Source: Mycobacteriales bacterium (lineage in GTDB: Bacteria; Actinomycetota; Actinomycetes; Mycobacteriales; SCTD01). From it: a stretch of 64,000 bases of DNA. Each line of letters opens with the position of its first letter. The stretch's first letter is position 1. A program made the translations under genes and the position numbers. Location: NCBI GenBank assembly GCA_040902655.1, contig JBBDWV010000028.1:63627-127626 (forward strand), in the 5' to 3' direction. Of this stretch, positions 52,416 through 56,047 are shown one piece after another. The notes under the pieces are model-generated. The model did no database searches. It had not been told where the DNA came from and saw nothing but the letters and a program-made list of their open reading frames with translations.

Positions 52416-54365
52416 TCACCAGCCGTGTCCGTCGTCGAGGGCCAGCAGCGGGCGCAACTCGCCGCCGCGCGCCCGGACGTCGGCAGGATCCACCGAGTAC
52501 TGCACCGCCACCGTGTCGTAGGACAGCTGGGTGCCGGCGCAGGCGGCCAGCAGGCGGGCGAGGGCGGCCGCGACCGCGGACTCCCCACCGGTGACGTGGA
52601 CGCGGTCGCTGATCCGCCACCAGGCCGCCAGGCAGCGCAGCAGAAGGTACGGCCCTCGTCCCGGCAGCTCGACCTTCCACAGGGCGGCGGCCACCGGGTC
52701 CAGGGCGATCCTCGAGGCCGGCAGCGGACGCGAACGCGGTTCGCGCCACCAGCTCCGCACCAGATGCCCGCTGAGCCTGGCGCCCCCCGGCAGCTGCCCC
52801 GACACGACCTCGGCCACCCGGACCGCACCCGGCCGACCGGAGGCGCCTTCCCACCTCACGGAGTACGGGTAGTGCCGTTGCGGCGACCGCAGCCAGCCGT
52901 CGGTGACCTGCAGCGCGGCGTCGGGGTCGGCGCGGGTCGCGGCGTCGAGCTCGGTCAGCCGTGCCGTCGCGGGGACGCCGACGGCGAGCGCCGGTCCGAA
53001 CGACCCCCAGACCCGCAGCGCAGCCTCGGCAGGGGAACCGGGCACGACCACGCGCGCGAGCTTGCGGTCCTCGGCGACGACGCTCTCCCAGAACTTCAGC
53101 GCCAGCCGGTTCCCGTCGTCGGCACAGCGCTTCGCGTCGAAGACGGGCACCGGCTCCGGGCGCGGCCCGCCGGCACGCGCGGGGCGGGTGGGGGACGGGC
53201 GGGGACGTGGCGCGGTCGCGCGAGGCGACGGGCCGGGGGAGGGAGGAGACGGCTGGGCCGGCACCGCGCTGGCAGTCGCGGTGCCCGGGACCGCTGGAGC
53301 ACCGACCGGGACCGCCGCCGGCTGCCCCGTGCACCGCAGGCAGCCCAGCCGGTGCTTGCCGGCCACCAGCGGTGTCGGTTCCGCGCAGTGCGGGCAGCGG
53401 AACGGCGCCACCATCTGCAGCGGCAACAGCCAGCGGAAGACGAACGGGTACTCCCGCGAGCCGCGCCGGATCGTCACCGGCAGGCGCGCCGTGGGGACGA
53501 GCACCTCGTGCACGCGGTACCACCGGATCGACTGTGTGCCGCGGAACTTCTCCTCCACCTCGGCCAGCCGGCGCTCCCGCTCGGCCCGGGTCGCGTCGGC
53601 CCGGGCGTCCAGCAGCGCCTGCTTGTCCGCCGGCGCGGCGACCCGCCGGCGGGCCAGCGCGTCCAGCGCCGCGCGGTAGTAGTCCGCCACCCGCGCGACC
53701 TCGCTGTCGCGGGTGCCGCGGGACTGTCGCGAGAGCGCACCCAGCCGCTCGTCGGCGCGCTGCTCGAGCTCGACCTGCGCGGCGGCAGCGGCCTGTGCCC
53801 GGTCGGCCGGCAGCACCAGGTGGGTCAGCCCGGACGTCGTCGGCGCCGCGGCCAACGCCGCCGAGACGGTCGGCGGCAGCGGCAGCCCGGTCTCGGCGTC
53901 GACCCACACCTCCTGCCGCTCCTGGAAGCGGTCGTCGAGAGTGAGGGAGTAGGTGACCAGCGCGCCGACCCGCAGGACCGGCGCGTAGCCGGCGACCGGG
54001 AGCTCCCCGGAGACGTCGATCCGGCCGTGGTCGACCTGCACCTGCGAGCGCAGCCGCTCGACCAGCACCTCTGCCGACGGCGGCACCCCGGCCGGCCAGG
54101 CCAGCGGGAGCCGGCCGACATCGCCGCGCGCCAGCACCCGCTCGGTCGCCCGGTCGAGCACCGGGTGCCCCTGCGCGAGCAGCAGCGCGCCGTCCTCGCG
54201 GGCCACCTCGGGGTCGGCGGTGACCGTCACCTCCTCGGGCAGCTCGAACGCCTCCCGCAGCGGCGCCGGTAGCAGCACCACAGCCGCGTCGTCGCCCTGC
54301 TCGTGCAGCGCCCCCTCGGCCTCGGCGGCGCGCAGCCAGAAGCCCAGCGCCGGGTCGGCCGTCAC
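52416..54365 (-). CDS. Unassigned zinc-ribbon/coiled-coil protein, helicase partner
   Basis: 649 residues; I do not recognise the family. Residues 1-185 are a mixed fold (GRIDVSGELPVAGYAPVLRV). Residues ~190-275 are a Glu/Arg/Ala coiled coil. A four-cysteine zinc ribbon follows: CPHC (324-327) and CLRC (342-345). Residues ~346-400 are a proline-rich linker. The C-terminal ~240 residues form another compact domain (HYPYSVRWEG, RCLAAWWRISDRVHV). The GTG start overlaps the helicase stop by 4 nt (GTGA), so the two proteins are made together and probably form a complex. No catalytic motif is seen; it may be the specificity or adaptor subunit. Confidence 0.8.
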   Translation of the reverse strand: MTADPALGFWLRAAEAEGALHEQGDDAAVVLLPAPLREAFELPEEVTVTADPEVAREDGALLLAQGHPVLDRATERVLARGDVGRLPLAWPAGVPPSAEVLVERLRSQVQVDHGRIDVSGELPVAGYAPVLRVGALVTYSLTLDDRFQERQEVWVDAETGLPLPPTVSAALAAAPTTSGLTHLVLPADRAQAAAAAQVELEQRADERLGALSRQSRGTRDSEVARVADYYRAALDALARRRVAAPADKQALLDARADATRAERERRLAEVEEKFRGTQSIRWYRVHEVLVPTARLPVTIRRGSREYPFVFRWLLPLQMVAPFRCPHCAEPTPLVAGKHRLGCLRCTGQPAAVPVGAPAVPGTATASAVPAQPSPPSPGPSPRATAPRPRPSPTRPARAGGPRPEPVPVFDAKRCADDGNRLALKFWESVVAEDRKLARVVVPGSPAEAALRVWGSFGPALAVGVPATARLTELDAATRADPDAALQVTDGWLRSPQRHYPYSVRWEGASGRPGAVRVAEVVSGQLPGGARLSGHLVRSWWREPRSRPLPASRIALDPVAAALWKVELPGRGPYLLLRCLAAWWRISDRVHVTGGESAVAAALARLLAACAGTQLSYDTVAVQYSVDPADVRARGGELRPLLALDDGHGW

Positions 54366-56047
54366 GCCTGCTCTCCCACCAGGCTGTCCAGCCGCTCCCG
54401 GCCGGCGAGGTAACCCGCGCGGGCCCGCGCCAGGTCGTCACCGAGCGCGGACACCCGCCGGTCGAAGTCCGCGTCGTCGGCGGCCTCGACGTAGGAGGAG
54501 AAGATCGCGCTCTCGAAGTCGAAGTCGTCGGTCACCCGGCCGAGGATCATGTCGAGCTCCCCGACGACCAACTCGAACAGGTTGATCTTGCTCTCCAGCA
54601 CGGTGAGGATGTGCTCCTCGATCGTGCCGCGGCCGACCAGGTTGGTGAGCACCACGTCGGACTCCTGCCCGATGCGGTGCAGCCGGCCCAGCCGCTGCTC
54701 GATCCGCATCGGGTTCCACGGCAGGTCGACGTTGACCATCACGTGGCAGAACTGCAGGTTGCGGCCCTCGCCGGCCGCCTCGGTGGTCAGCAGCACGGGG
54801 ACCTCGTCCCGGAACGCCGTCACTGCCCGTTCCTTCTCCTGTCTGGACAGCGCCCCGTGGTAGACCGCCGCCGGGACGCCCGCCTCGGCGAGCGCGTCCT
54901 CGAGCAGGGCCAGCGTCTGCCGGTAGGCGGTGAACACCACGACCTTCTCGCCCCGGTCCAGGTGCCGCCGGAGCAGGCCGAGCAGTACCCGCGACTTCTG
55001 CGTGCTCGTGACGTCCGACGCGCACCGGGCCAGGTCGTCCCAGCCCAGCCGGGCCAGCGTCGGCGCGACCGCGGCGGGGCTCGAGCCGGCGAGCTGCGCG
55101 ACGGTACGCAGGGCCAGCCGGCGGCTGGGCGGCGCCTCGCGGGCCTCGACGCGCACGCGGGTGACGATGTCGTCGTACAGCGTCTGCTCCTGCTCGTCGG
55201 CCGGAACGCGCACCGTCTCGGCCAGCCGCTGCGGCAGCGAGACGGCGACCTCGCTGCGGCGGTGGCGCACCATGACCTCGCGGGTGCGGGCCTGCAGGCC
55301 GGCGATGTCGCGCGGCAGGCCCTCCCCGCCGCCGTGCCGGGCGCGGAACTCCGCCGGTGTGCCGAGCAGGCCCGGGGCCACCAGGCTGATCAGCTCGAAC
55401 AGCTCGTCCAGCCGGTTCTCCACCGGCGTCGCGGTGAGCAGCAGCAGGTAGCGGGCGCGCAGCGCGCGGGCCAGCCGGCCGGAGGCGCTGCGCGGGCTCT
55501 TCACCCGGTGCGCCTCGTCGACGACCACGAGGTCCCACGGCTGATCGGTCAGCGCCGCCCGCAGCGGGTCGCGCCGGGCGGCGGCCAGCGACGCGACGAC
55601 CACCGGGCGGTCCGGCGAGGAGGGCCAGCTGCCGCCGGCGGCCACCGTCGTGGGCAGCCCGAACTTGCGGTCCAGCTCCTCGCACCACTGCTCGACCAGC
55701 CCGGCGGGCACGACGACCAGCGACCTGTCGGCCAGGCCGCGCAGCCGCAGCTCGCTCAGCACCAGCCCGGCCTCGATCGTCTTGCCGAGGCCCACCTCGT
55801 CGGCCAGGATCGCCCGCCCCCTCATCCGGCGCAGCGCGCTCTGGGCGGCCTGCAGCTGGTGCGGGAACGGCGTGAAGCGCAGGTGGGGGACCGAGGCGAG
55901 GGTGTCGAAGCCGGGGCGGCTCCACAGCGTCGCCGCGTCGTCGACCAGCGCCGAGACCGCCTCGTCCACCGATCCGGCCGCCGACAGCCGGGCGAGCAAG
56001 GTGGAGTACGGAGCGTCGGTCAGCTCGCTCTGCAGCGCGACGGTCAC
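54362..56047 (-). CDS. Compact SNF2-family DEAD/DEAH helicase
   Basis: 561 residues from the GTG at 56047 with GGAAGGA upstream. Motif I ILADEVGLGKT (80-90), motif II VVVDEAHRVK (175-184), motif III LLLTATPVENRLDE, and the second domain with KVVVFTAYRQTLALLEDALA, LLTTEAAGEGRNLQF and IEQRLGRLHRIGQ. This is the RapA/SNF2 type that moves on double-stranded DNA. It is much shorter than DISARM DrmD or RapA and has no fused nuclease. Possible roles are defence, transcription recycling or repair. First gene of the two-gene unit. Confidence 0.92.
   Translation of the reverse strand: MTVALQSELTDAPYSTLLARLSAAGSVDEAVSALVDDAATLWSRPGFDTLASVPHLRFTPFPHQLQAAQSALRRMRGRAILADEVGLGKTIEAGLVLSELRLRGLADRSLVVVPAGLVEQWCEELDRKFGLPTTVAAGGSWPSSPDRPVVVASLAAARRDPLRAALTDQPWDLVVVDEAHRVKSPRSASGRLARALRARYLLLLTATPVENRLDELFELISLVAPGLLGTPAEFRARHGGGEGLPRDIAGLQARTREVMVRHRRSEVAVSLPQRLAETVRVPADEQEQTLYDDIVTRVRVEAREAPPSRRLALRTVAQLAGSSPAAVAPTLARLGWDDLARCASDVTSTQKSRVLLGLLRRHLDRGEKVVVFTAYRQTLALLEDALAEAGVPAAVYHGALSRQEKERAVTAFRDEVPVLLTTEAAGEGRNLQFCHVMVNVDLPWNPMRIEQRLGRLHRIGQESDVVLTNLVGRGTIEEHILTVLESKINLFELVVGELDMILGRVTDDFDFESAIFSSYVEAADDADFDRRVSALGDDLARARAGYLAGRERLDSLVGEQA

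Follow-up and report, generated by a model that had tools for sequence, protein, structure and literature searches.

What is the role of a compact SNF2-type helicase whose gene overlaps that of a protein without any assigned family? This question arises from a two-gene unit in a stretch of 64,000 nucleotides from a Mycobacteriales bacterium (hereafter the window, meaning the whole stretch of DNA that was analysed). The features that bear on it are the following.

54362..56047, minus strand: SNF2/SF2 ATPase, motor subunit, 561 aa (PF00176, PF00271)
54362..54365, minus strand: GTGA, stop/start overlap of the helicase and partner genes (sequence)
52416..54365, minus strand: partner subunit, 649 aa (ORF)
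53796..54365, minus strand: partner residues 1-190, putative counterpart of the RapA Spacer / first alpha+beta domain (sequence/profile comparison)
53547..53807, minus strand: partner residues 187-273, coiled coil, putative counterpart of the inserted helix pair of the RapA/BrxHII CTD (profile comparison, AF2 helices, PMC12839542)
53331..53396, minus strand: C4 zinc ribbon, partner residues 324-345 (cysteines 324, 327, 342 and 345)
53151..53321, minus strand: Pro-rich linker, partner residues ~349-405 (sequence)
52419..53150, minus strand: C-terminal module, partner residues ~406-649, no family match (conservation among actinobacterial loci)
56226..57311, plus strand: PRiA4_ORF3 gene (PF07929), divergent from the helicase (Pfam)

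The initial annotation described a 561-residue SNF2 helicase, free of nuclease or added domains, overlapping a 649-residue partner by GTGA. Coordinates, motifs, and Pfam domains agree with this description, and a domain search of the helicase found no nuclease or other extra domain, no N-terminal Tudor domain, and no Spacer/CTD. The protein comprises both RecA lobes, with ~60 residues ahead of the SNF2 domain (PF00176, 3e-32; PF00271, 2e-23). Its motifs are all intact (GLGKT, DEAH, TATP, GEGRN, and QRLGRLHRIGQ). Both genes begin with GTG. An alternative in-frame ATG would give a helicase of 621 aa but runs into the divergent gene at 56226, and the GTG start is therefore preferred; GGAAGG lies upstream of it. 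The nearest solved relative in the PDB is RapA. The top NCBIfam model is DrmD, at 238 bits against a cut-off of 610 bits.

The coiled coil (~190-275), C4 ribbon, and Pro-rich linker that had been ascribed to the partner are all present. A single-sequence AlphaFold2 model (mean pLDDT 39.9; low confidence outside the coiled coil) places helices at residues 187-215, 221-242, and 246-273. Searched alone, the partner returned nothing useful from Pfam, NCBIfam, PADLOC, PHROGs, or the PDB, and its profile gave only chance matches in the PDB, to coiled coil and ribbon. The C-terminal domain, which the initial annotation could not place, likewise yielded nothing useful from Pfam and the PDB; a weak match to BRE1 (E 0.0026) is not believed. 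The ribbon is kept in all eight actinobacterial partners and in most haloarchaeal ones, and is missing from cyanobacterial partners. The ~250-aa C-terminal module is conserved in seven actinobacterial loci and missing in the eighth (G530), where the partner stops directly after the ribbon, like most plasmid partners. Their recurrence in related loci means that neither the ribbon nor the C-terminal domain arose by chance. Two unusual copies were also seen. In Halorhabdus tiamatea (L017:10569-13856), the partner has 1,095 aa and its C-terminal part is a long CxxC-finger array. In one metagenome-assembled genome (L009:6443-8335), the helicase gene enters a piece of the partner C-terminal module out of frame, at a junction that could reflect deletion, decay, or misassembly.

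Comparison with multidomain helicases accounts for the N-terminal part of the partner. Residues 1-190 align with residues 690-880 of Escherichia coli RapA (Z 6.5; reached by 0 of 2000 shuffles), and the same shuffle test was negative for other partners taken one by one. In profile comparison, the partner family scored 58.8 with the C-terminal region of 32 DrmD-type helicases (P 3.5e-7; best shuffled score 17.2) and 38.0, against 12.5, with that of BrxH (P 2e-4), both scores being well above column-shuffled and reversed controls. A 24-member partner profile gave 48.8 versus 19.0 for DrmD and 45.0 versus 14.0 for BrxH; when the coiled coil was removed, the DrmD match became marginal (23.2 against 20.9) and the BrxH match was kept (40.1 against 13.2). 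The match of the whole family to RapA alone is weak (score 23.5 versus 17.4). Actinobacterial partners alone gave no signal against DrmD or BrxH, so the wider family is needed.

The order of parts points the same way. The domains of RapA are named NTD, core, Spacer, and CTD (PMC8501970), and the partner core, with Spacer and then coiled-coil CTD, is collinear with them. BrxHII-type helicases similarly have a Swi2/Snf2 core and then two alpha+beta domains, the second of which bears long helices that form a coiled coil (PMC12839542). Judged by these alignments, the first ~300 residues of the partner are a predicted counterpart of the post-motor half (Spacer plus coiled-coil CTD) of RapA, BrxH, and DrmD, so that the pair would be a split RapA/BrxHII-type helicase lacking the N-terminal Tudor domain, and the partner would be mostly part of the motor assembly. 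The description of the partner as unassigned thus holds for its C-terminal module and no longer for its core. Aligned with named subunits, the partner is matched over about half of its length, to a piece of a larger protein, and unmatched over the remainder. The partner is largely explained, and the pair represents a known helicase type in two-gene form rather than a new kind of system.

The two genes travel together. On plasmids, 23 compact helicases were counted at E below 1e-45: 17 haloarchaeal, 5 cyanobacterial, and 1 from the alphaproteobacterium Rhodovastum. A partner homologue lies immediately downstream in 22 of them; in the 23rd (Halocatena), a 676-aa gene without assignment occupies the partner position. 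No partner homologue was found apart from a helicase in the plasmid collection. The plasmid partners are mostly 333-397 aa long and align at low identity to residues ~1-345 of the window partner. Among actinobacteria, seven further genomes have adjacent helicase and partner genes (helicase identity 61-70%), giving linkage in 8/8 loci; the partner of one (G737) is interrupted by an internal stop. The two-gene unit initially proposed is therefore conserved across plasmid and actinobacterial copies alike.

The pair is rare, occurring in 1-2% of actinobacterial genomes. A class survey found a close helicase in 5/394 genomes (two of these fused), a phylum survey found the partner in 7/396 (one copy a remnant), and the partner occurs in 0/8 other genomes of the genus. 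This rarity and the absence from all eight congeners therefore rule out a housekeeping role. The initial annotation had weighed an invariant core gene pair of actinobacteria against its own proposal; these counts clearly contradict such a core pair, and the proposal therefore survives. Within the genus, the stretch between the conserved katG/Fur genes and an alpha/beta hydrolase gene varies; at this place the DNA of two congeners (G002 and G004) is shorter and of different sequence. Neither the partner nor a close helicase was matched in the phage collection or found on viral contigs.

Fused forms also occur. In two genomes of the window's order (G361 and G239), 2,144-aa proteins consist of a helicase with a partner-like region directly after it (region versus partner: P 1.4e-6, 55.0 versus 21.7). 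They resemble the pair in this content, but here it forms a single chain, which also has Cys-rich fingers and more than 1,000 additional residues. Against RapA, DrmD, and BrxH sequences, the split and fused helicases group together (support 93/93.6, obtained after removal of three long branches), and E. coli RapA falls outside; the tree makes a single clade of split and fused helicases likely but not proven. The natural fusion of helicase and partner supports a physical complex. The neighbour of the fusion in G361 (L108:5094-16756) is a 1,743-aa protein that combines DnaQ-type exonuclease, DinG-like, and RecQ-like parts; the helicase-partner fusion is also present in G239 (L109). The fusion and this exonuclease/helicase protein look like a separate, unnamed two-gene system.

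RapA (HepA) of E. coli is an RNA polymerase recycling ATPase that frees the polymerase from DNA after termination or stalling. The pair could be a transcription factor of this kind, binding RNA polymerase and releasing it from DNA in the same circumstances. RapA is the motor's closest solved relative, the partner core matches its Spacer and CTD, and the Spacer is the part that contacts the zinc-binding domain of the polymerase beta' subunit (PMC8501970). Yet the polymerase activates the RapA ATPase by wedging open its N-terminal domain (PMC8501970), and the pair has no such domain. Both share an SNF2 core, Spacer, and coiled-coil CTD; in RapA they belong to a single polypeptide that also has an N-terminal tandem Tudor-like domain, whereas the pair has Spacer and CTD on a separate polypeptide, no Tudor, and, unlike RapA, a zinc ribbon and an extra C-terminal module. 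The rarity of the pair, its absence from congeners, its frequent location on plasmids, and the position of RapA outside the split/fused clade also speak against a role in polymerase recycling, which we regard as improbable.

Gene neighbourhoods point toward defence. Of 13 haloarchaeal loci, 9 have genes for a DUF1156 methyltransferase and/or a DUF499 ATPase within 12 kb, and the other 4 have restriction-type genes (McrBC, Mrr, or HNH) or an N-6 methylase nearby. One of the DUF1156 proteins matches HmaB (5e-38), and one DUF499 protein matches HmaC (7e-18). In one actinobacterial genome (G268), a complete HsdR/S/M type I restriction-modification (RM) set lies directly upstream of the pair, the only examined actinobacterial locus with an RM operon beside it. 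The window pair is flanked by genes for KatG, a Fur-type regulator, and a penicillin acylase, and the window neighbours scanned include no methyltransferase, DUF499 ATPase, nuclease, or other defence gene. The penicillin-amidase-type gene (49528-52383, minus strand) starts 32 nt past the partner stop. None of the other loci scanned has it next to the pair, and we rejected it as an operon member.

These neighbourhoods invite comparison with known systems. Hma, a candidate defence system proposed from gene content (PMC8565338), is centred on a DUF499 ATPase with a DUF1156 N6-methyltransferase; a later experimental study of its helicase is cited in PMC12839542. BrxHII and Hma helicases share with the pair a Swi2/Snf2 core followed by two alpha+beta domains, and Hma-type neighbours in haloarchaea. 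They are single chains, however, that in many cases include Tudor and a nuclease fusion, whereas the pair is two genes with neither; no nuclease, fused or adjacent, was found in either protein or in the scanned window neighbours. The C-terminal region of DISARM DrmD matches the partner, but the helicase falls far below the DrmD cut-off. Among those same neighbours there is no DrmA, DrmB, or DrmC of DISARM and no PglZ or BrxC of BREX. The initial annotation saw a layout unlike DISARM, BREX, Hachiman, Zorya, or Druantia, and indeed no complete locus of these kinds is present here. BREX-related helicases are presented as single chains, with no 'split' form in the text (PMC12839542), and our literature searches found no two-gene form of a RapA/BrxHII-type helicase. 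This form thus seems undescribed.

The pair might provide the helicase of a BREX-related, Hma/DUF499-centred system, dependent on the methyltransferase and DUF499 ATPase, with the window copy an orphan or acting with distant genes. The nine haloarchaeal loci fit this, and no further gene in the stretches of them that were read is annotated as SNF2. The actinobacterial, cyanobacterial, and alphaproteobacterial copies read, on the other hand, have no methyltransferase or DUF499 genes nearby, so these neighbours are not obligatory, and we consider such dependence unlikely. Many copies are plasmid-borne, and the cyanobacterial ones, beside which no clear defence genes were seen, are close to genes for partition, relaxase, integrase, and toxin-antitoxin functions, as would suit a factor for maintenance or transfer of plasmids or other mobile elements instead of defence. 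The scanned actinobacterial contigs nevertheless bear chromosomal-type genes (cytosol aminopeptidase, dehydroquinate synthase, and KatG), and the RM and Hma neighbours would be left unexplained; we think a maintenance or transfer role very unlikely.

The divergent PRiA4_ORF3 gene, the sole copy in the window's genome, lies beside the pair in 3/8 actinobacterial loci (the window, G530, and G737). Genomes carry 1-4 copies, so chance alone is unlikely to place one next to the pair, but this neighbour was chosen after being seen. Its product is a possible optional third component. Near its end (~57284-57425), the window carries a dispersed ~95 nt palindromic repeat with the core GTGTGCACCACAGGTCAACAATCGGGAAAAGTTGACCTGTGGTGTACACC. 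About 30 further copies occur in the same genome at 76-88% identity; none was listed in eight congeners, and there is no Rfam match. Downstream of the G530 pair (L175:5145-9185) is another SNF2 helicase (DUF3670), accompanied by a gene for a SWIM zinc-finger protein.

We observe homology of both halves to known helicases, strict linkage, fusions, rarity, mobility, and a recurrent Hma-type/RM neighbourhood. The reading we favour, with some reserve, is a two-subunit, split SNF2 translocase of the RapA/BrxHII/DrmD group that serves as the DNA-translocase module of mobile-element defence and has exchangeable partner targeting domains. The helicase would be the ATP-driven motor, translocating on DNA as expected from its family. 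The partner would contribute, in trans, the lobe of Spacer and coiled-coil CTD that RapA and BrxHII carry in the same chain as the motor; it would form a complex with the motor, holding and guiding it in the way of the Spacer/CTD of RapA. Its ribbon and C-terminal module may select a DNA or protein target; we suggest these parts because both vary between lineages. The motor could then move along invading DNA and remodel or block it, or feed it to a nuclease encoded elsewhere. With no nuclease domain in the pair, cleavage, if any, would be by another protein, and no nuclease was found next to the window pair.

From its genomic context, the pair is probably a part of defence. Among defence, transcription recycling, and repair, the roles initially proposed, defence is best supported, by the Hma-type and RM neighbourhoods. 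The suggestion that the partner supplies specificity or effector function stands in part: its ribbon and C-terminal extension are the only candidates for specificity, and its core belongs with the motor. A further, more tentative and on balance doubtful reading is that the two genes form an undescribed defence system of their own in bacteria and archaea, in which a bare SNF2 motor would work with an adaptor whose lineage-swapped C-terminal module chooses targets, and PRiA4_ORF3 would be a third part in some actinobacteria. The swapped modules would be the ~250-aa domain of actinobacteria and the Cys-rich fingers of Halorhabdus.

The split-translocase reading accounts for a protein family of bacteria and archaea that otherwise has no annotation. 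RapA and the BREX, DISARM, and Hma systems have this motor as a single long chain, and it also occurs as two genes. In this form, the Spacer/CTD half can be purified, deleted, or swapped separately, making its role directly testable, and the C-terminal modules, being exchangeable, hint at the place where targets may be chosen.
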